Source: a virus | Virus record (IMG/VR): IMGVR_UViG_3300042484_000725 | Span: 1 to 27,009 of that record | Reading direction: 5' to 3' (one strand) | DNA length: 27,009 bases | Shown here: positions 853-27,009 of the stretch, piece by piece | Layout: every line of letters begins with the position of its first letter | Position numbering within the stretch: position 1 is the stretch's first letter | The notes under the pieces: generated by a model | Told to the model about the DNA's origin: nothing | The model's database searches: none | The model's input: the letters and a program-made list of their open reading frames with translations, nothing else | Position numbers and translations under genes: made by a program

Positions 853-1493
853 CCTACTTAGAACTTGTCAATGATGTTCTCACCCGTTTGCGTGAGACTA
901 ATGTTTCTACAGTCTCAGAAACAAACTATTCCGCATTGATTGGCAAGTTTGTCAATGATGCCAAGCGTCAGATTGAAGATTCCTATAATTGGAATGTCTT
1001 AGGACAAACAATTACAGTTACTACTACTTCTGGCACAAGCTCATACGCTTTGACAGGTGCGGGTCAGAAGTTTCGTATCAATGATGCTATTAACACTACC
1101 AGTGTTATTACCTTAGATAACACTACTGTTGCGGACATGAACCGCAAACTCAACTTTGGTACACCTTCACAGTCTATTCCTTCAGAGTTTTGCTTTAGTG
1201 GTGTAGATAACAATGGCGACACAAAGATTGATTTGTTCCCCGTTCCTGATGGTGTCTATACACTCAAGTTTGATGTAACTGTCCCACAGGCTAATCTGTC
1301 TGCTGATGGCACTTCAGTCAAAGTATTGGACTATTTGGTGACTCAAAGTGCTTATGCTCGTGGTTTGATTGAGCGTGGTGAGGACGGAGGCACTGCTTCT
1401 AATGAGGCTTATGCTTTGTTCCGTGGAATGCTATCTGACGCTATTGCATTGGAAAGCACTCGTTACCCTGAAGATAACTTTGTGGCGGTCTAA
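849..1493 (+). CDS. Head-tail adaptor protein (podovirus gp4/gp11-like, SU10-adaptor-like)
   Basis: A 214-residue protein. It opens with an amphipathic helix (MTYLELVNDVLTRLRETNV), has a second helix (IGKFVNDAKRQIEDSYNWNVL), then a Thr-rich beta region, and ends with helices (YARGLIERGEDGG, YALFRGMLSDAIALE). The order helix, helix, beta region, C-terminal helices is typical of phage adaptor or tail-tubular-A-like proteins that form a ring below the portal and open the DNA channel. Placement directly before a nozzle-like gene supports this. The gene overlaps the nozzle start by one base (TAATG). Specific family membership (SU10-type adaptor) is from memory. Confidence 0.7.
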   Translation: MTYLELVNDVLTRLRETNVSTVSETNYSALIGKFVNDAKRQIEDSYNWNVLGQTITVTTTSGTSSYALTGAGQKFRINDAINTTSVITLDNTTVADMNRKLNFGTPSQSIPSEFCFSGVDNNGDTKIDLFPVPDGVYTLKFDVTVPQANLSADGTSVKVLDYLVTQSAYARGLIERGEDGGTASNEAYALFRGMLSDAIALESTRYPEDNFVAV

Positions 1494-3037
1494 TGGCATC
1501 TCCTCTACAAAGTCAAAGCATTAGCGCACCAGGCTTTTTTGGCCTGAACACGCAAGACTCGCCCTTAGATTTATCTTCTGGCTTTGCTTTAACTGCTGTT
1601 AATTGTGTCATTGACCAATTTGGTCGTATTGGCTCAAGAGAAGGTTTCTCGCTTGTTAATTCTTCATCAGGAAATCTAGGCTCTAACGATGTGGGTGTGA
1701 TCCATGAGTTAGTTCAAACTGATGGCACTTTGACTGTTTTGTTTTCGGGAAACAACAAGTTATTCAAATTCGGCACTTCTAATGTAGTGACTGAGTTGAC
1801 CTATGGTGGTGGTGGTTCTGCCCCTACCATTACGGCAAATAACTGGCAGTGTGCATCTTTGAATGGCATTGCTTATTTCTTCCAAACTGGTCACGATCCA
1901 CTCATCTTTGATCCCGCTGTAAGCTCAACAACATTTAGACGGGTATCTGAGAAGTCAGGCTATGTTGGTACTGTTCCGCAAGCCAACATTGCTATCTCAG
2001 CGTTTGGTCGCTTGTGGGTGGCTAATACTGCTACAGACAAGGTAACTATTAGCTTCTCTGATCTGATTGCAGGCCATGTGTGGGGTGGTGGTACTTCAGG
2101 AACTCTGAATGTTTCTAGGGTATGGCCTAATGGTTCTGATGAAGTGATGGGTCTAGCGGCTCACAATGACTTCTTTTTCATCTTTGGCAAGAGGCAGATT
2201 CTTGTCTACTCTGGTGCTTCTACTCCCGCTTCTCTTGTCCTATCAGACACAGTAGGCTCTATTGGGTGTATTGCTAGAGACACCATTCAGTCAATTGGCA
2301 CAGATGTAATCTTTTTGTCGGACTCAGGTGTTCGTTCTTTGATGAGGACAATCCAAGAGAAGTCTGCACCCCTTAGAGACTTGTCTAAAAATGTTCGCTC
2401 AGATTTAACAACTTCTGTGGCGGGAGAGACTTTAGCCAATGTGAAGTCTGTTTACTCAGAGAAGAATGCTTTTTACTTGTTGTCACTACCAATATCAGCA
2501 AGCGTCTATTGTTTTGATACAAAGATGCAATTGCAAGATGGGGCTTTTAGAGTAACCAAGTGGGATTCAATTACACCAACAGCCTTGTACTCTCTAAGAA
2601 ATGGTGACTTGTATATTGGTAAACGAGGCTTTATAGGAAAGTATGGAACTTTCTTAGATAACACTTCTACCTACCGATTGAGCTACTTTACCAACCATGC
2701 AGACCTTGGTAATGAGAATCAGATTTCTATTCTTAAGAGAATTAAGACAATCATCATTGGTGGATCTAACCAGTTTGTGACGATTAAGTGGGGCTTTGAC
2801 TTTGCTGCCAATTATTTGTCAGGCAATGCTTTTATTCCTACACAACAGAACTATGAGTACGGCCTTGCTGAGTATGGAATAGCTGAATACTCTGGTGGAC
2901 TCTTGATTAAAACATTGGATGTGAACGCATCTGGTGCTGGCAAGGTTGTTCAAACAGGTTACGAAACCACTATCAACGGCACTCAACTGTCAATTCAGAA
3001 GATTGAAATTCAATCTAAGAACGGGAAAATATCATGA
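1493..3037 (+). CDS. Putative tail nozzle / stabilisation protein
   Basis: A 514-residue beta-rich protein starting in a TAATG overlap. The N-terminus (PGFFGLNTQDSPLDLSSGFA, then ALTAVNCVIDQFGRIGSREG) is the pattern I associate with podovirus nozzle or stabilisation proteins of the P22 gp10 / T7 gp12 type, which begin with a statement-like region followed by repeated beta-propeller strands. Internal segments such as AFGRLWVANTATDKVTISFS and FFFIFGKRQILVYSG fit propeller blades. It would form the distal ring of the short tail, holding the fibre or plugging the DNA channel. It sits between the adaptor and the fibre, the expected order. No enzymatic motif is seen. Confidence 0.68.
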   Translation: MASPLQSQSISAPGFFGLNTQDSPLDLSSGFALTAVNCVIDQFGRIGSREGFSLVNSSSGNLGSNDVGVIHELVQTDGTLTVLFSGNNKLFKFGTSNVVTELTYGGGGSAPTITANNWQCASLNGIAYFFQTGHDPLIFDPAVSSTTFRRVSEKSGYVGTVPQANIAISAFGRLWVANTATDKVTISFSDLIAGHVWGGGTSGTLNVSRVWPNGSDEVMGLAAHNDFFFIFGKRQILVYSGASTPASLVLSDTVGSIGCIARDTIQSIGTDVIFLSDSGVRSLMRTIQEKSAPLRDLSKNVRSDLTTSVAGETLANVKSVYSEKNAFYLLSLPISASVYCFDTKMQLQDGAFRVTKWDSITPTALYSLRNGDLYIGKRGFIGKYGTFLDNTSTYRLSYFTNHADLGNENQISILKRIKTIIIGGSNQFVTIKWGFDFAANYLSGNAFIPTQQNYEYGLAEYGIAEYSGGLLIKTLDVNASGAGKVVQTGYETTINGTQLSIQKIEIQSKNGKIS

Positions 3038-20805: not shown

Positions 20806-21230
20806 CATTTATGGTGACTTTCAAAGTAGACGCTAACCCTGTTGGCAAACAAAGGGCTAGATATGTCAAAAGGGGAAACTTTGTGCAAACCTACACCCCT
20901 GAGAAAACTAGAACCTATGAGACTTTAATCAAGGATTCTGCAATCGAGGCAATGGGTGCTTCCGAACCATTGGAAACCCCTGTTAGCCTTTATCTTTACA
21001 TTCGAGTGCCAATTCCTAAGTCATGCACCAAAAAGCGGTTAGAAGCCATTGATAACGGGTTAGAGAAACCAACAAAGAAGCCTGACGCAAGCAATATTCT
21101 AAAGAGCGTAGAAGATGGCATGAATGGGGTTGTCTACCATGACGATTCGCAGATCATAAACATCCACGTTACGAAGGTTTATTCGAGTCTGCCAGGCGTT
21201 GATATTTGCGTAAAAGAGTGCTTGGACTAA
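20802..21230 (+). CDS. rusA: RusA-family Holliday-junction resolvase
   Basis: A 142-residue protein. The RusA signature is complete: NPVGKQRARY near the N-terminus, then KKPDASNILKSVEDGMNGVV with D95, N98 and D105, and YHDDSQI with D114, D115 and Q117. These acidic residues bind magnesium and cut four-way junctions symmetrically. Phage RusA enzymes clear branched intermediates before packaging, which fits an annealing-protein-based recombination system in the same genome. Length is close to the usual ~120-140. The stop overlaps a palindromic operator-like sequence. Confidence 0.9.
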   Translation: MTFMVTFKVDANPVGKQRARYVKRGNFVQTYTPEKTRTYETLIKDSAIEAMGASEPLETPVSLYLYIRVPIPKSCTKKRLEAIDNGLEKPTKKPDASNILKSVEDGMNGVVYHDDSQIINIHVTKVYSSLPGVDICVKECLD

Positions 21231-21717: not shown

Positions 21718-22037
21718 ACGAGCCTACACTTGCGATAGAGTTCATCATAAAAACAGCCCCGCTTTACGCCAAGGCTAAGTCTGATCGTATGTTTTTAGAA
21801 GAATATAGGCGATCAAAACACGCACAACTGAAAAGCCTTGCAGGGACTGAAGTGCTTGGAAAACAGGACACATTTGCTTATGCTCACCCTGAATATGTAG
21901 AAATACTGGAAGGAATAAGGGCAGCCGTTGAAATAGAAGAACGCTATCGTTGGCTAATGACAGCCGCACAAGCAAAGGTCGAGTGCTGGAGAACCGCCCA
22001 ATACTCAGCCCGCATGGAATTAAAGGCCACTACTTGA
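21714..22037 (+). CDS. Conserved helical phage protein, 107 aa
   Basis: A 107-residue, almost entirely helical protein: KAKSDRMFLEEYRRSKHAQL, then YAHPEYVEILEGIRAAVEIE, ERYRWLMTAAQAKVECWRTA and a basic end. I recognise the LEEYR-SK, YAHPEY-ELLEG-AAV-EEE-RW and A--K-E-WRT pattern from many phages of Proteobacteria, where it often lies next to recombination genes. The function is unknown; a structural or nucleic-acid-binding coiled coil is plausible. The stop overlaps the TTG start of the Ref-like gene. Confidence 0.72.
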   Translation: MNEPTLAIEFIIKTAPLYAKAKSDRMFLEEYRRSKHAQLKSLAGTEVLGKQDTFAYAHPEYVEILEGIRAAVEIEERYRWLMTAAQAKVECWRTAQYSARMELKATT

Positions 22038-22312
22038 ACAACAAACTAAGCGCAAAGCAAAGACTACACATAGGGAAAGTTAAGTTATTGCCGTGCTCAG
22101 TATGCGATCAGCCAGGCATTTCGGATGCTCACCATATTGAGCAAAAATTACAGTATTGCGTGATCGCCTTATGCCGTGATTGTCACAATAGCTGGCACGG
22201 AACTAAGGCTATATGGCGCATCAAAAAAATGGATGAACTAGCAGCCCTTGACGTTACCATTCGCAGATTGACGCAGGAAATGCCCCTAGAAGGCTATTCT
22301 GAGCCGTTTTGA
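22034..22312 (+). CDS. Ref-like recombination enhancement nuclease (HNH/zinc)
   Basis: The longest frame starts at 21950, but that overlaps the upstream gene by 88 bases. I choose TTG at 22034 in a TTGA overlap, which gives a typical family N-terminus (NNKLSAKQRLHIGKVKLLPC). The 92-residue protein has zinc and HNH-like residues: C21 and C24 (CSVCDQPG), H33-H34 (DAHHIEQ), C47 and C50 (CRDCHNSWHG) with H51 and H55. The match is to the nuclease domain of phage P1 Ref, a RecA-dependent nuclease. A role with the annealing protein and RusA is likely. Direct repeat GAGCCGTTTT spans the stop. Confidence 0.8.
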   Translation: MNNKLSAKQRLHIGKVKLLPCSVCDQPGISDAHHIEQKLQYCVIALCRDCHNSWHGTKAIWRIKKMDELAALDVTIRRLTQEMPLEGYSEPF

Positions 22313-22320
22313 GCCGTTTT
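22301..22320. repeat. Tandem 10-bp repeat over the Ref-like stop codon
   Basis: GAGCCGTTTT occurs twice in tandem (22301-22310 and 22311-22320); the first copy encodes the final residues and most of the stop context of the Ref-like gene. Gain or loss of a unit would alter only the sequence after the stop. Confidence 0.7.
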
Positions 22321-22353
22321 TTGGGGCTTGTCCATACCAACTATGCCAGACGT

Positions 22354-22375
22354 AAAAAAACCCTCCGTAGAGGGC
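22354..22375 (-). terminator. Intrinsic terminator between convergent blocks
   Basis: On the minus strand GCCCTC TACG GAGGG is followed by seven T residues (plus: AAAAAAA at 22354-22360, then CCCTC CGTA GAGGG to 22374). It ends the leftward small-gene cluster. The same hairpin followed by CTTTGG could also slow rightward transcription from the Ref-like gene. Confidence 0.78.
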
Positions 22376-22433
22376 TTTGGGGTTTATCGTTTTCCTGAGA
22401 GTATTCGTAGAACTAGAGCCAGACAAGCATAGA

Positions 22434-22631
22434 TCATAAAACGGCTAATGCTTTTCTAGTTTCTTTGATTTGCTCTTGAATAAATGATGCCCAATTTTGC
22501 GCTTCAAATTCATCAATTATCCAAATTGCATCAATTTTTAGATCGCTTTCAGTTTCACTAGCGGCCTCCCAATCCCCATGATCGCCTAAATTACACAATA
22601 ACCCGTCAGGGCTTAAAGCAAAATATATCAT
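22434..22631 (-). CDS. Small acidic protein, 65 aa
   Basis: A longer frame begins at 22643, but the ATG at 22631 overlaps the upstream stop (ATGA) and has GGGGGTCAGA before it, so I use it. The 65-residue product reads MIYFALSPDGLLCNLGDHGD, then WEAASETESDLKIDAIWIID and EFEAQNWASFIQEQIKETRK. It is acidic with a beta-rich first half and one C-terminal helix. It is the last gene of the leftward small-protein cluster, just before the terminator. No family was recognised. Confidence 0.58.
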   Translation of the reverse strand: MIYFALSPDGLLCNLGDHGDWEAASETESDLKIDAIWIIDEFEAQNWASFIQEQIKETRKALAVL

Positions 22632-22798
22632 TCTGACCCCCATAATTTAATTGCAGCTTGTTTGCACTGGTTTACTTGTTTTTTGGTTAACCCGTGGGCT
22701 ATTTGTTCCGCTAATTCAGCAGCTTGTTGCGCTTTTTGGTCATTAGGTGCAGTTAAAGCAAGAACCAGGCATTGTGTGAGTGCTTCAATTTGTGTCAT
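22628..22798 (-). CDS. Small helical protein, 56 aa
   Basis: The longest frame starts at 22846, but the ATG at 22798 has AAGGGGCTAAAA directly before it, the same site as the gene at 24637. The 56-residue product (MTQIEALTQCLVLALTAPND, then QKAQQAAELAEQIAHGLTKK) is a two- or three-helix bundle. The pattern A-LTTAL-LA-TAP followed by KAQQA-ELAEQIA is one I recognise in short proteins of unrelated phages and plasmids. Function is unknown. Its stop overlaps the next gene. Confidence 0.65.
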   Translation of the reverse strand: MTQIEALTQCLVLALTAPNDQKAQQAAELAEQIAHGLTKKQVNQCKQAAIKLWGSE

Positions 22799-22808
22799 TT
22801 TTAGCCCC

Positions 22809-23141
22809 TTAGAATTGACGATAAACGATTGAACTATCTGTCTCACCTATCAAAGCCCCTTGATCTGCTAAAAAATCAAGCACTTGCGCTTTTTGCTCAT
22901 CCTCACTCTGATTTTTATCTAATTCAATAGAACTATCATAATCCGCTGCAATAGTTTGCCAGTCTGACTCAGCAAAATCACAGCAAAGGCCAATGACGTC
23001 TAATTCTGAGTCCTCACCGCATGAGTTATCTATTTCCTCTATATGGTCAAAAAGAACCCGTAAACCTTGATAAGAAAAGTTATCGGGTCTAATTTTGTGG
23101 AAATAGTCGCAGAATTCTGAAAAGTAAACAGTTGTTTTCAT
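22809..23141 (-). CDS. Conserved acidic mobile-element protein, 110 aa
   Basis: A 110-residue very acidic protein: MKTTVYFSEFCDYFHKIRPD, then NFSYQGLRVLFDHIEEIDNS, ELDVIGLCCDFAESDWQTIA and a Gln/Asp/Glu-rich end. The combination FSY-GL--LFDY-EE followed by ELDVIALCC-F is widespread in plasmids and phages but lacks a known function. Its high net negative charge, position next to an antirestriction candidate, and spread across mobile elements suggest an anti-defence or DNA-mimic role; this is inference. It is preceded by the double-hairpin leader (23166-23209). Confidence 0.68.
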   Translation of the reverse strand: MKTTVYFSEFCDYFHKIRPDNFSYQGLRVLFDHIEEIDNSCGEDSELDVIGLCCDFAESDWQTIAADYDSSIELDKNQSEDEQKAQVLDFLADQGALIGETDSSIVYRQF

Positions 23142-23148
23142 ATTGAAC

Positions 23149-23220
23149 CTTAAAAAATATTGAACCCTAGGGAAACACCTAGGCCAATAACCCCCAATTA
23201 GAGGGTTATCAGTCTAAGCA
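23149..23220 (-). promoter_or_regulatory. Double-hairpin leader, copy C
   Basis: Reading leftward from 23220: TTAGACTG just after the upstream stop, hairpin 1 with nine pairs (23187-23195 with 23201-23209, loop AATTA on plus), then hairpin 2 CCTAGG / CCTAGG (23166-23171 with 23178-23183), a T-rich stretch and AAGG-TTCA before the ATG at 23141. The only mismatch is C-A on plus, hence G-U on the transcribed strand. It aligns with copies at 23650-23695 and 24141-24204. Confidence 0.65.
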
Positions 23221-23406
23221 TTAGGCGGCTAATCGTCTGTCTATTTCAACAATGGCACGATCTAGGCCGTTTTGACCTTGAAACCCGATAACAGCGCATC
23301 GTGTGGAATGGGTCAGGCCGTTTTTGTAAACCTCAAAACCCTTAGAGCCTAGGTTTAAAACCCAAAATTGGCCTTTTTCGTATGCAATATCTGATTCTTT
23401 ATACAT
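23221..23406 (-). CDS. Small conserved protein, 61 aa
   Basis: The longest frame starts at 23577, but that would overlap the upstream gene fully. I choose the ATG at 23406, preceded by AAAGGCTCACT. The 61-residue product begins MYKESDIAYEKGQFWVLNLG and continues SKGFEVYKNGLTHSTRCAVI, ending in a helix (GLDRAIVEIDRRLAA). The pattern Y-----G-WV-----FEVY--G-THS-R-A-IG followed by a helix is familiar from plasmid and phage small proteins. Beta-beta-helix folds of this size often bind nucleic acid, but the function is unknown. Confidence 0.66.
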   Translation of the reverse strand: MYKESDIAYEKGQFWVLNLGSKGFEVYKNGLTHSTRCAVIGFQGQNGLDRAIVEIDRRLAA

Positions 23407-23416
23407 AGTGAGCCTT

Positions 23417-23626
23417 TTAACTGTTTTGTAAACCATTAACAACAAAGTATTCGACATCATAGGCCGAGGGTAAGTGGCCTGAAATTGGCAAATTGTCAGC
23501 CCCGTAAACCATCCAGCCTTTAAGAGTACTTTTGAGGGTAAATTGTTTGCCGCTGGGTGCAACAATGATGCAACCATCTGCTACATGGCCTCGCATAGAG
23601 TGAAAATTGTTTGATGATGTTTGCAT
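23417..23626 (-). CDS. Small beta-rich protein, 69 aa
   Basis: A 69-residue protein, MQTSSNNFHSMRGHVADGCI, then IVAPSGKQFTLKSTLKGWMV and YGADNLPISGHLPSAYDVEY. It predicts several short strands and a C-terminal helix. The start follows AGGCGTTCA, the cluster's peculiar ribosome-site-like element, and a double-hairpin leader (copy B). Its stop lies just before the AAAGG of the next gene. No family was recognised; the general shape resembles the following gene. Confidence 0.6.
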   Translation of the reverse strand: MQTSSNNFHSMRGHVADGCIIVAPSGKQFTLKSTLKGWMVYGADNLPISGHLPSAYDVEYFVVNGLQNS

Positions 23627-23649
23627 TTGAACGCCTATGAGTTAAAAAT

Positions 23650-23695
23650 TAGATTCTAAGGGTATGAAACCCCTAGGCAATAGGGTAAAACCCTA
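23650..23695 (-). promoter_or_regulatory. Double-hairpin leader, copy B
   Basis: Hairpin 1 is TAGGGT AAA ACCCTA (23681-23695 on plus) and overlaps the upstream TAG stop. Hairpin 2 pairs CTAAGGGT (23656-23663) with ACCCCTAG (23669-23676), eight pairs around ATGAA; the single mismatch A-C on plus becomes G-U leftward. A T-rich stretch and ATAGGCGTTCA lead to the ATG at 23626. Confidence 0.65.
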
Positions 23696-23872
23696 GTTTT
23701 TATCGATTGAGTACATTGTGTGCCCGATTGTGATAACCATAGAACCCGATTCTATTAAAGTATCAATCCAGCTTCTATCAATTTTGCACCATTGTGCGCT
23801 ATCAATAGGCAATGATTTAATGGTTTGCCATCCGTGATTATCGGTTTTTTGATGTAATGAAATAGTTATCAT
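23693..23872 (-). CDS. Small protein, 59 aa
   Basis: An ATG at 23872, preceded by AAGGGGCTAAC, opens a 59-residue frame: MITISLHQKTDNHGWQTIKS, then LPIDSAQWCKIDRSWIDTLI and ESGSMVITIGHTMYSIDKN. Mixed strands and one helix (WCKIDRSWIDTLIESG), no charge bias. The ribosome site is the same type as used at 22798 and 24637, which supports the gene. Its TAG stop forms part of hairpin 1 of leader B, so translation could affect that fold. No family was recognised. Confidence 0.6.
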   Translation of the reverse strand: MITISLHQKTDNHGWQTIKSLPIDSAQWCKIDRSWIDTLIESGSMVITIGHTMYSIDKN

Positions 23873-23881
23873 GTTAGCCCC

Positions 23882-24127
23882 TTAAACCTTGTTAGCCCAC
23901 TGTAAACCCGCATCAGTGGCATGGTAGGTGTTTGCGTCAACATCATGAGTCAAAAACCCGTGACGTTCTAACGTGCTCATTATTTGCTGGAATTGATTTA
24001 ATGTTGCCCCGTGAGACATGAGAGCACTATAAATAACGCCACTGGGTGCACCAATAGAGTCTATGTTTGCAGCTTCAATTATTCCCTTGCCTATTGATTG
24101 CAAGGCTAAAATTTGCTGTTTTGTCAT
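23882..24127 (-). CDS. Small winged-helix-like protein, 81 aa
   Basis: An 81-residue protein: MTKQQILALQSIGKGIIEAA, then GAPSGVIYSALMSHGATLNQ, FQQIMSTLERHGFLTHDVDA and NTYHATDAGLQWANKV. Helix-helix-helix followed by a short strand pair (FLTHDVDANTYHAT) matches a winged helix of the MarR/ArsR type without metal residues. It may bind DNA and control the cluster; this is inferred from the fold. It is preceded by double-hairpin leader A, which contains a terminator-like stem, so its expression is probably regulated. Confidence 0.62.
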   Translation of the reverse strand: MTKQQILALQSIGKGIIEAANIDSIGAPSGVIYSALMSHGATLNQFQQIMSTLERHGFLTHDVDANTYHATDAGLQWANKV

Positions 24128-24140
24128 TGTGAACGCCTAT

Positions 24141-24204
24141 AAAAAAGTTGAAAAAACCCCAGTGAGACACTAGGCCATAAACCCCTAAAAAAGGGGCTTA
24201 CAGT
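24141..24204 (-). promoter_or_regulatory. Double-hairpin leader, copy A
   Basis: Leftward: TTAGACTG, hairpin 1 (24179-24186 with 24192-24199, loop AAAAA on plus), then hairpin 2 (24158-24164 with 24168-24174, loop AGA) directly followed by a run of six T. Both mismatches are A-C or C-A on plus and G-U on the transcribed strand. A second T-rich stretch and ATAGGCGTTCA precede the ATG at 24127. Layout matches copies B and C. Confidence 0.68.
24151..24174 (-). terminator. Terminator-like hairpin 2 of leader A
   Basis: CCTAGTG TCT CACTGGG, then G and six T residues on the minus strand, a standard intrinsic terminator shape. It sits between the ArdC-N-like gene and the next gene of the same cluster, so it may reduce read-through or act as an attenuator. 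Confidence 0.65.
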
Positions 24205-24208
24205 CTAA

Positions 24209-24514
24209 TTACTGAATTGGGTCAGTTTGTGAAATGTGAAATACAGTTGAACGCCTACAAAGCATGAAACTGTTTTCGCTGGTTTTGTCCTTTGCGGGTA
24301 TCCATGTAACAACTTTCACGCCCTTTTCACCCTTGCGAACTTGTCTATTCAGGGCTAACCATGCGTTATAGGTGAACACGTTTTCACGGGGAATAATGTC
24401 ATTGGCTGCAATTCCCTTATCTGCAAACCCTTGCAAAATTGCCTGGTAATTGGCTAACGAATCCCCGTTTTTAGCCCTGTTGAGTGATTCTAACGATTGT
24501 GTGATCTTATCCAT
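24209..24514 (-). CDS. Mini antirestriction protein: ArdC N-terminal-like domain only
   Basis: A 101-residue protein. Its second half, VFTYNAWLALNRQVRKGEKG, VKVVTWIPAKDK and STVFHISQTDPIQ, matches the conserved end of the ArdC N-terminal (ssDNA-binding) domain of antirestriction proteins and TraC-like primases: the W--L-RQVRKGEKG-KV pattern and VFHISQT are characteristic. The metallopeptidase domain that normally follows is absent, and the stop is followed by a leader hairpin, with no peptidase remnant. It may protect incoming DNA by coating single strands. The ATG at 24514 follows AAAGGGCGTTACATC. Confidence 0.7.
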   Translation of the reverse strand: MDKITQSLESLNRAKNGDSLANYQAILQGFADKGIAANDIIPRENVFTYNAWLALNRQVRKGEKGVKVVTWIPAKDKTSENSFMLCRRSTVFHISQTDPIQ

Positions 24515-24541
24515 GATGTAACGCCCTTTAAAAAATGTTAA

Positions 24542-24637
24542 CTATTTAACTAAAATATCAAAATAATCAAGTAAACCTATGCAAAGCATAAGACCGATTG
24601 CAATGGCAGCGGCATAGTCTAAAAATTGGTCATTCAT
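24542..24637 (-). CDS. Tiny single-span membrane protein, 31 aa
   Basis: The longer frame to 24754 is unlikely because it overlaps the upstream gene. The ATG at 24637 has TAAGGGGCTAAAA before it, identical in type to 22798. The product, MNDQFLDYAAAIAIGLMLCI, then GLLDYFDILVK, is one transmembrane helix with short acidic ends. Such proteins in early phage clusters can alter host membranes or block superinfection, but nothing specific is visible. Confidence 0.58.
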   Translation of the reverse strand: MNDQFLDYAAAIAIGLMLCIGLLDYFDILVK

Positions 24638-24647
24638 TTTTAGCCCC

Positions 24648-24830
24648 TTAAAGTGAGGGTGAATCGGTGCAAATACAAACGAACTGTTCGAATTTTGGTG
24701 CACCAAATAATGATTCCACAATGACGTTGCGGCCCGTGTGTGTGTAGCTAACAATTTTCATTGTTTTGCCATGTACTGAAATGTATTGGCCAATTTTGTA
24801 TTGACCTTTTGGGATAAATGCAAATTTCAT
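24648..24830 (-). CDS. Small beta-barrel-like conserved protein, 60 aa
   Basis: A 60-residue protein: MKFAFIPKGQYKIGQYISVH, then GKTMKIVSYTHTGRNVIVES and LFGAPKFEQFVCICTDSPSL. Alternating hydrophobics with G-Y-IGQYI and GK-MKI--YTHTGRNV predict a five-strand SH3- or OB-like barrel, a pattern I have seen in phage and plasmid small proteins. It is the first gene of the leftward cluster, behind the promoter-operator region at 24899-24927, with TAAGGGCTTTAAT before its ATG. Function is unknown. Confidence 0.62.
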   Translation of the reverse strand: MKFAFIPKGQYKIGQYISVHGKTMKIVSYTHTGRNVIVESLFGAPKFEQFVCICTDSPSL

Positions 24831-24898
24831 ATTAAAGCCCTTAGAGTTGACACTTTCACTTGAAAGTAAAGTAATTATCGGGTCAAAAAAAGAAAAAA

Positions 24899-24927
24899 CT
24901 ATTAGGACAAACCCTAATAAAGTACAA
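24899..24927 (-). promoter_or_regulatory. Candidate leftward promoter with palindromic operator
   Basis: Leftward: TTGTAC (24922-24927), 17-base spacer, TAATAG (24899-24904). The inverted repeat ATTAGG ACAAAC CCTAAT (24901-24918) covers the spacer and -10 box. A rightward -10 (TACAAT, 24923-24928) overlaps the -35 box, so divergent promoters may share one operator. The hexamers are imperfect. Confidence 0.42.
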
Positions 24928-24961
24928 TTATTTTAATTTATTTGTTTTCAGGGTTTAGACA

Positions 24962-25201
24962 ATGGCAAGGCCACCTAAGGTAGATACAGTGCAATTTAGG
25001 CGAAAGCTGGATAACCCTAAGCTGCAGATTCTATTGAGTGCTGGGCAAGGCAATATTAGTCAGGGTTTTGAAAACCTATTGAGCCTTTACCAACATTTGC
25101 ATGGCATCGGATATAGAACAGATAGCCCACTGGAAAGCATAGGGTTAGTAACTAACCTACCCGAAAAGAAAAGGGATAGCCCTAACCATGTCAATCAATA
25201 G
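24962..25201 (+). CDS. Small ribbon-helix-helix-like protein, 79 aa
   Basis: A 79-residue basic protein. The N-terminus MARPPKVDTVQFRRKLDNPK followed by LQILLSAGQGNISQGFENLL and SLYQHLHGIGYR could be a ribbon-helix-helix: a strand with alternating residues (VQFRRKL), helix 1, a Gly turn, and helix 2. The last 25 residues look disordered. It sits alone, divergent from the leftward cluster and next to a shared operator-like palindrome, an arrangement typical of an autoregulating repressor. No family match was confirmed; an uncharacterised plasmid- or phage-type protein is the alternative. Confidence 0.5.
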   Translation: MARPPKVDTVQFRRKLDNPKLQILLSAGQGNISQGFENLLSLYQHLHGIGYRTDSPLESIGLVTNLPEKKRDSPNHVNQ

Positions 25202-25361
25202 GGGACAAGGTAAGGGATAGATAGAGTAGACGGATAGACGGGAATAATTCAAGTACATCAAATTAGGTGCATCCGCTTCTTACGCTTGCATGAAATCTAA
25301 ATAAGAATCATTCGCATTTGGGTGGCCTGTATAGAAGCACAGTACTGTAAGGATAACCATG

Positions 25362-25417
25362 AGGGTAAACCCTATAAGGGTAAGTACGTAGGTAGAAACC
25401 CTTAGGTAAAAACCCTA
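25362..25417. repeat. Cluster of AGGGT/ACCCT repeats
   Basis: Five pentamers in 56 bases: AGGGT (25362) with ACCCT (25369) forming a tight inverted repeat, TAAGGGT (25375) pairing with ACCCTTA (25398), and ACCCTA (25412). The same pentamers form the operator-like palindromes elsewhere in the window. Confidence 0.6.
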
Positions 25418-25434
25418 TGCTGTATGGAAACACA

Positions 25435-25449
25435 GGGGGGGGGAGGGGG
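25435..25449 (+). repeat. G9-A-G5 run
   Basis: Nine G residues, one A and five G residues in a moderately AT-rich genome. The run may form a G-quadruplex, although only two long runs are present. Homopolymers of this length are prone to length errors in sequencing, so the exact count should be treated with care. Confidence 0.8.
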
Positions 25450-25522
25450 TAGCGTCTGTGTGTAGATATTTGTGGAGCCACCATCCCTCAGAAAAAGCTA
25501 AATTCAACTCCAAGGAGAACTA

Positions 25523-25891
25523 ATGGAACAATTGAAAAGAGGAAGAGGAAGACCAAAGGGAAGCGTCAAGATGACCATACAAAGGTTTGCTGACAATCCA
25601 CCCCTTGTACTACCTAAGACAGACCATCAACGTCTCAAGGAGCTTAAAGAGCTGATGATTAGGAGTGGAGGTAAGGACGTGGCTCAGAAGGTTATTGAGA
25701 TAGCCCTTAATGATGAGCATCCACATCAATTGGTAGCCCTGAAGATGTGTCTTGATAGGACTCTTCCTGTTTCTTTGTTTGAAAAGGACAAGAGTCAGAG
25801 AAGTGCCGTAACCATCAATATCACTGGTTTGGGACAAGAACCGATTATTGTTGATGAACAACCTGAAGACGTAGAGGCTAAATATGGCTGA
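25523..25891 (+). CDS. terS: Putative small terminase subunit
   Basis: A 122-residue protein. It begins with an AT-hook-like basic motif (KRGRGRPKGSVK, residues 5-16), then helices (HQRLKELKELMIRSGGKDVA, then KVIEIALNDEHPHQLVALKM) and a beta-rich acidic end. A DNA-binding basic N-terminus plus an oligomerising helical core fits small terminase subunits, and it lies directly before and overlaps the large subunit gene by eight bases. It would recognise phage DNA for packaging, possibly in the non-coding region upstream. Family assignment rests on position and composition. It has a strong AAGGAGAAC site. Confidence 0.68.
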   Translation: MEQLKRGRGRPKGSVKMTIQRFADNPPLVLPKTDHQRLKELKELMIRSGGKDVAQKVIEIALNDEHPHQLVALKMCLDRTLPVSLFEKDKSQRSAVTINITGLGQEPIIVDEQPEDVEAKYG

Positions 25892-27009
25892 TCTCAACTT
25901 CTCTCTACTTCCTTGGCAACAAGAGGTATTTAAGGATTCCACGAGGTTCAAGGTTGTGGCTGCTGGGCGTAGGTGCGGTAAGTCACGTATGGCGGCAGTT
26001 ACCCTTCTGATTGAAGGACTCAAGTGTCCACAAGGCTCTGCGGTTCTTTATGTTAGTCCCACTATGGGGCAATCAAGACAGATTATCTGGGACTTATTGC
26101 TAGACCTTGGTAGAGAGGTTATTCAGAGCAGTCACGTTAACAACCTAGACATTACCCTGATAAACGGGGCTAGGATATACGTTCGTGGTGCGGATAGACC
26201 CGATACCCTTCGTGGTGTCTCGCTGACCTATGCCGTTCTCGATGAGGTTGCTGACATTAAACCCGAAGCATGGGAACAGGTTATCCGAGCAAGTTTGTCT
26301 GATAAACGGGGGAGAGCACTCTTTATCGGCACTCCAAAGGGGAGAAATTGGTTCTACGATACCTTTAAGTTGGGTGAGAGTGAGGATGACCCTGATTGGA
26401 AGAGTTGGCACTTCACCACTGCTGATAACCCCTTGATTGACCAAGCAGAGATAGATTCCGCTAAGAAGACCCTAAGTTCCTTCGCTTTCAAGCAAGAGTT
26501 TATGGCTTCTTTTACGAATGCGGGTTCGGACATCTTCAAGGAAGAGTGGATCAAATACGGGGTAAAGCCTGAACATGGAAGCTATTACATCGCTGTTGAC
26601 CTTGCGGGATTCGAGGAAGTTGCCAAACAAGCCGCCAACGCTAAGAAGCGTCTGGACGAGTCTGCTATCTCAATCGTTAAGGTAACAGACGATGGAAAGT
26701 GGTTTGTTGAGAAGATTGAACACGGGAGATGGGACATCCGAGAGACAGCCTCTAAGATACTGATTGCCATTCGGGACTACCGCCCTTTAAGTGTGGGGAT
26801 AGAGAGGGGGGCACTAAAGAACGCTGTTTTGCCCTATCTTTCGGACTTGATGCGAAAGAACAACACCTATGCTCACATCGTGGATTTGACCCACGGGAAT
26901 AGAAAAAAAGCAGACAGAATCATCTGGGCTTTACAAGGTAGGTTCGAGCATGGCAGAATTGTGTTAAATTCGGAAGAAGATTGGGATGAGTTTGTAGACC
27001 AGTTAATCC
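25884..27009 (+). CDS. terL: Large terminase subunit (partial at right edge)
   Basis: The frame opens at ATG 25884 and runs without a stop to the window end, giving 375 visible residues. ATPase motifs: Walker A AGRRCGKS (27-34), Walker B AVLDE (117-121) with catalytic Glu121, and coupling motif GTPKG (149-153). The RNase H-like nuclease starts near YYIAVDLAG with D239 and continues with VGIERGA (E307). This is the motor that pumps DNA into the capsid and cuts it. The C-terminal part of the nuclease domain is missing. Portal and capsid genes would be expected next, beyond the window. Confidence 0.92.
   Translation, partial: MADLNFSLLPWQQEVFKDSTRFKVVAAGRRCGKSRMAAVTLLIEGLKCPQGSAVLYVSPTMGQSRQIIWDLLLDLGREVIQSSHVNNLDITLINGARIYVRGADRPDTLRGVSLTYAVLDEVADIKPEAWEQVIRASLSDKRGRALFIGTPKGRNWFYDTFKLGESEDDPDWKSWHFTTADNPLIDQAEIDSAKKTLSSFAFKQEFMASFTNAGSDIFKEEWIKYGVKPEHGSYYIAVDLAGFEEVAKQAANAKKRLDESAISIVKVTDDGKWFVEKIEHGRWDIRETASKILIAIRDYRPLSVGIERGALKNAVLPYLSDLMRKNNTYAHIVDLTHGNRKKADRIIWALQGRFEHGRIVLNSEEDWDEFVDQLI

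Follow-up and report, generated by a model that had tools for sequence, protein, structure and literature searches.

A repeated intercistronic RNA element of phages with two competing helices, a possible sensor of translation termination

Attenuators are known mostly from the 5' leaders of biosynthetic operons. In those of the trp/pyrBI type, two helices are mutually exclusive, a ribosome at the stop codon would cover one strand, and a terminator-like hairpin follows the stop at a distance of more than 20-30 nt. Phage T7 has intercistronic RNase III sites, for which we know of no alternative structure with the stop codon, and lambdoid phages carry boundary or linker sequences at the borders of their modules. 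Another phage RNA, put of HK022, measures about 70 nt and consists of two stem-loops (PMC9378689). Here, we describe a phage RNA family, named E. Like the trp/pyrBI attenuators, it combines mutually exclusive helices, a strand that a ribosome at the stop codon would cover and a terminator-like hairpin at a comparable distance. Unlike them, it lies between full-length genes and not in a 5' leader that encodes a short leader peptide (ordinary genes from more than 20 families precede it), occurs in several copies per operon, has a weak U-tract, is restricted to phages and uses only three pairing strands plus a constant hairpin. With the T7 sites it shares structured hairpins repeated between the genes of a phage operon, and with the lambdoid linkers a short sequence conserved at those borders where the gene content changes, although in E it is the RNA pairing rather than the sequence that is conserved. 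Two tandem stem-loops, a similar length and the phage context connect it to put, which is promoter-proximal, whereas E is intercistronic, repeated and bistable. E probably acts in cis on nascent RNA, as put does.

The whole of the DNA analysed here, referred to as the window, constitutes a single virus record in IMG/VR with a length of 27,009 bases. It encodes a structural protein at 1493-3037, relatives of which are encoded by 542 IMG/VR loci, as well as a Sak (annealing) protein. Cultured phages gave no DNA match to positions 22000-27009 of the window or to the E-bearing stretch of a further locus, L167. A leftward cluster (24830 to 22434) is made up of small, tightly packed genes, separated by -23 to 30 nt where no structured element intervenes and by 81, 66 and 82 nt at leaders 1, 2 and 3, respectively. 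The genes bordering the E copies are:

24209-24514, minus strand: gene for a stand-alone ArdC N-terminal-domain protein (PF08401, 101 aa), upstream of E copy 1
23882-24127, minus strand: 81-aa gene with no assigned function, downstream of E copy 1
23224-23406, minus strand: phrog_20712 gene with no assigned function, upstream of E copy 3
22809-23141, minus strand: phrog_9974 gene with no assigned function, downstream of E copy 3

The first of these proteins covers only part of the ArdC N-terminal domain (anti-restriction), and its relatives form the gene family that ranks second in frequency upstream of E.

An earlier note on this DNA had described a single layout in three gaps of the cluster. 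This holds for leaders 1 (24208-24128) and 3 (23217-23142), which are members of one phage RNA family, E; leader 2 belongs to a different one. The proposed structured RNA element is indeed repeated within one operon, yet it is not a single family across all three gaps. On the minus strand, copies 1 and 3 both run from the stop codon through TTAGACTG, hairpin 1, GGCC, hairpin 2, a T-rich stretch and a ribosome-binding site to ATG, and it is these two copies that share TTAGACTG after the stop, as had been observed. Their parts, in the order of the leftward transcript, are:

24125-24211, minus strand: E copy 1 (covariance model 82.4 bits; fold)
24211-24209, minus strand: stop codon of the ArdcN-like gene
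24208-24201, minus strand: TTAGACTG of copy 1
24175-24203, minus strand: hairpin 1 of copy 1, arms 24203-24192 and 24186-24175 (fold, covariation)
24158-24174, minus strand: hairpin 2 (P2) of copy 1, CCTAGTG/CACTGGG, followed by GTTTTTT
24164-24211, minus strand: helix P1 of copy 1, left strand 24211-24204 (stop plus TTAG), right strand 24173-24164
24127-24125, minus strand: ATG after copy 1
23139-23223, minus strand: E copy 3 (covariance model 79.8 bits; fold)
23223-23221, minus strand: stop codon before copy 3
23217-23210, minus strand: TTAGACTG of copy 3
23184-23212, minus strand: hairpin 1 of copy 3, arms 23212-23201 and 23195-23184 (fold, covariation)
23166-23183, minus strand: hairpin 2 (P2) of copy 3, CCTAGG/CCTAGG, followed by GTTCAATATTTTTT
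23173-23223, minus strand: helix P1 of copy 3, in which stop, spacer and TTAG face the 5' arm and loop of hairpin 2
23141-23139, minus strand: ATG after copy 3

Both copies fold better than shuffled sequences (z -2.9 for copy 1 and -2.4 for copy 3). In copy 1, P1 and hairpin 2 are mutually exclusive, P1 being interrupted; in copy 3, P1 is the centroid fold. The AGGCGTTCA-like element of the earlier note is present, not as a portion of the structured core but as a freely varying ribosome-binding site, i.e. AGGCGTTCA is a Shine-Dalgarno/spacer variant that stands beside AGGTGTT, AGGCTTT and AAGGTTC and is also found inside a gene at 24256. The gene starting at 24514 has a leader that consists of just the T-rich ribosome-binding site in a gap of 30 nt, in line with the same note.

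Leader 2 lacks TTAGACTG and has no covariance-model match over hairpins 1 and 2; the model meets it at the ribosome-binding-site end only (23659-23624, 15 bits, E-value 2.3). Its features are:

23627-23695, minus strand: leader 2, with the stop TAG within TAGGGTTTTACCCTA (23695-23681)
23676-23656, minus strand: second hairpin of leader 2
23680-23653, minus strand: promoter-like TTGCCT-16-TAGAAT

The signature of this family is AGGGN4-5CCCTATT with a second hairpin of near-constant length that varies with some compensation. Among the loci examined, AGGGTTTATCCCTATTGCCTAGGGGTTTCATGCCCCTAGAATCTAATTTTTAAC gave 25 distinct 45-nt matches, about 22 of them true members. Since the hairpin length, and with it TTGCCT-16-TAGAAT, is near-constant, a promoter is as likely as an RNA here, and leader 2 may be an internal promoter preceded by a palindrome. 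The AGGGN4-5CCCTATT palindrome begins at stop codons in both operons of the window, at 23695-23627 on the minus strand and at 21230 on the plus strand, and at many loci promoter-like hexamers and TAATTTTTAAC come after it. Clustered AGGGTAAACCCT-like repeats occupy 25340-25450 of the window, and similar AGGG...CCCT clusters occur in three other loci (L256, L269 and L290).

Further copies of E were abundant in IMG/VR. A first pattern, in which TAGACTG, CCC, GGG and TGGCCTAG were required and the stem was left free, matched 99 IMG/VR contigs and none of 84,980 bacterial and archaeal genomes, while with a less constrained pattern the number of IMG/VR contigs matched rose to at least 119. For two variant classes, class-specific patterns matched 33 and 53 stretches, respectively. 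A relaxed scan of the genomes gave three matches, none of which was scored by the covariance model, and the cultured-phage collection yielded nothing convincing. Among 36 long contigs (20-43 kb), 35 had a model match, and most carry one to five clustered copies in the sense orientation. The nearest GenBank relative by Sak protein, the environmental genome MW202710.1, has no E. A known RNA family was ruled out, as no family of Rfam 15 exceeded its gathering threshold (the best was a chance suhB match with 19 bits against 41), and no description of E was found in the literature, which was covered in part. The carriers are uncultured, probably freshwater phages, and the suggestion of a phage-specific element is borne out: nothing convincing appeared in bacterial or archaeal genomes.

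The earlier note had further proposed that the stems differ between copies while pairing is kept, and had named a covariance-model search as the check. Covariation proved statistically strong, and further copies are numerous, as described above. In the free part of hairpin 1, pairing is near perfect despite many changes, with 87 double-change cells versus 25 in shuffles that ignore relatedness (0/500 shuffles). The wobble pairs U7-G and G8-U are conserved in 189/189 copies. At hairpin 1 positions 9-12 of these 189 copies, 13 G-U and 0 A-C mismatches were counted in the sense of the transcript, just as the note had read the mismatches, which indicates that the selected molecule is the sense RNA (or a single strand). 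A protein operator or DNA palindrome was rejected, as different classes share one contig and pairs other than Watson-Crick appear as G-U on the sense strand alone. E as a promoter was likewise discarded, because the loop lengths of the hairpins vary and leave no constant hexamer spacing.

What the earlier note overlooked is that hairpin 2 competes with a second helix, which contains the upstream stop codon. This helix, P1, joins the stop codon, the spacer and NNAG to the 5' arm and loop of hairpin 2. P1 is paired in 75.9% of cells versus 60.0 +/- 1.8 in shuffles, and shows 62 double-change cells versus 24 +/- 4.7 (0/500 shuffles), relatedness being ignored in both comparisons; in slid registers, at most 54% is paired. 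The comparison was repeated with an independent script, and at least columns 1-6 of P1, i.e. the spacer positions, were never constrained by the search patterns. P2, in turn, covaries at stem pairs 3, 4 and 5 (p < 0.0005, relatedness ignored). Divergent copies of different classes sharing contigs revealed that three strands vary together, as UUAG/CCUAG/CUAGG, UAAG/CCUUGG/CCAAGG or UCAG/CCUGC/GCAGG. Position 43 belongs to both helices, and its base has a partner in each of them in 51/51 non-redundant copies, some of which came from class-specific patterns; the triples are UAU (32), CGC (12), AUA (2) and others. Classes B and C were first met without class-specific patterns and recur in a class-free scan.

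Taken in isolation, hairpin 2 is favoured by 5.5 kcal/mol. Once the stop and its flanks are included, the gap between the two states has a median of 2.5 kcal/mol, with values from -1.8 to 7.4. Since covariation supports both P1 and hairpin 2, and the two have bases in common and lie close in energy, E is bistable and possesses the mutually exclusive, conserved RNA helices that characterize an attenuator. Judging from covariation alone, a base triple rather than strand exchange would be compatible as well. P1 is interrupted in some copies, and an A-C mismatch within it is kept in 43/51 copies. A search for a G-C version of A5-C40 matched 13 contigs, of which only L138 and perhaps L317 resemble E; the mismatch is therefore genuinely kept. 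Both features count against a switch, the mismatch because a simple antiterminator has no need for it. Altogether, the structure of E is well supported, and both helices, their mutual exclusion, the fixed position of the stop and the phage specificity are established by computation.

In 22/23 unrelated upstream gene families, the stop codon precedes AGACTG by 2-7 nt. The next start follows at a variable distance of 19 to 61 nt. The fixed stop position may in part stem from genome compactness, since the family of leader 2 likewise begins at a stop codon. In the two window copies, hairpin 2 begins 34 and 37 nt past the stop. In E. coli, about 10 nt downstream of the ribosomal A site are protected, and a ribosome represses a terminator only if the latter lies within about 27-30 nt of the stop (PMC4824070). 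From this footprint and these distances, a terminating ribosome would mask the left strand of P1 and spare the terminator hairpin, a geometry that corresponds to that of an attenuator.

Hence, E could well be an intercistronic RNA switch of the attenuator type that senses translation termination, a reading which we favour tentatively. In the P1 state, the 5' arm and loop of hairpin 2 would be bound, across hairpin 1, by the stop, the next 2-7 nt and NNAG. In the P2 state, the same 5'-arm bases would instead pair with the 3' arm to form hairpin 2, directly followed by UUU; hairpin 1 would be present in both. P1 can form first during transcription, since its right strand is transcribed ahead of the 3' arm of hairpin 2. 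A ribosome that ends the upstream gene would then open P1 and mask its left strand while on the stop codon, so that hairpin 2 could fold behind the polymerase and make it pause or, in part, terminate. If no ribosome followed closely, P1 would persist and the polymerase would read on. In this way, each junction would adjust downstream transcription to the translation of the preceding gene. We infer the ribosome as the trigger and transcription as the output. In its general form, the proposal of a phage RNA switch at the junctions along an operon, in which one of two competing structures takes up the stop codon and transcription is tied to the completed translation of the preceding gene, is possible, albeit short of likely.

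The evidence on the output comes from the nucleotides that follow hairpin 2. Three positions, 2-4 nt past this hairpin, carry U in 89-94% of copies, and beyond them the composition falls back to background, a concentration that points to RNA polymerase. By a classical terminator score, hairpin 2 exceeds the threshold (score >0) in 18% of copies, the median lying below it. Window copy 1 is a weak intrinsic terminator by this score (d +6.4), copy 3 scores poorly (d -34), and the terminator at the end of the window operon reaches +16. Plain weak intrinsic terminators after genes, devoid of any switching, would account for hairpin 2 plus UUU and for copy 1 being above the threshold. They are very unlikely, however, as the conserved TTAGACTG, hairpin 1 and the P1 helix with its stop codon would be left unexplained. 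The weak scores rather favour pausing or partial termination at hairpin 2 under the control of translation, which may well be the output, though we propose it with reserve. The main rival is translational insulation or RNA processing, where E would block reinitiation, or where P1 (about 20 bp) would be cut by RNase III whenever ribosomes do not hold it open, thus releasing a separate mRNA unit per gene. Predicted structure just downstream of a stop codon reduces translational coupling (PMC12548453), the E gaps of 81-82 nt compare with -23 to 30 nt where structured elements are missing, and weak terminator scores are equally in keeping with this explanation. Nevertheless, neither two exclusive covarying structures nor the U directly after hairpin 2 would be needed for it, and we regard it as unlikely. 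Sequestration of the Shine-Dalgarno sequence by strand 2 was dismissed, since classes B and C (CCUUG, CCUGC) keep ordinary AGG sites with no matching change, as judged by inspection without a formal count.

Alternatively, E might be a cis-acting RNA that modifies RNA polymerase in the manner of HK022 put and suppresses pausing and termination. The similar size, the two adjacent stem-loops, the conserved primary sequence and the invariant wobble pairs would suit such a role. Yet put is located near promoters and acts over 10 kb, which would make repeated copies unnecessary, and wherever the upstream gene could be resolved, E nearly always comes after its stop codon. Moreover, the E model (R1) found no match up to an E-value of 10 in the HK022 early region searched (25000-40751), within which put is presumed to lie. 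The put-like role appears quite improbable. Least probable of all is that E is kept mainly as a recombination joint, whose short border homology would be used by Sak for the exchange of cassettes. Homology between contigs ends preferentially inside E, with 2,851 right ends in the 0-100 nt bin at E versus mostly 16-730 in other 100-nt bins (counts that include near-identical loci), and the window encodes Sak. A joint, though, requires sequence identity, whereas the stems of E differ with their pairing kept, and the asymmetry of G-U versus A-C indicates RNA. Gene exchange at E is probably a consequence of, and not the reason for, the RNA structure.

If the attenuator reading is true, E would be a compact RNA device, present in several copies per operon, that couples each gene to the translation of the preceding one and needs no known protein partner. 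A reiterated intercistronic attenuator at a gene's own stop would be new and a possible genetic part. With three-strand covariation over hundreds of natural copies, the mechanism is directly testable.

E is also a border where these phages exchange genes and marks the sites at which this happens. Altogether, 44 gene families flank E. Mosaicism is strong, the same upstream family preceding at least eight downstream families with the break inside E. Among the flanking families, the one met most often (about 209 aa) is similar to the beta sliding clamp of Acinetobacter phage 4316 (35% identity).
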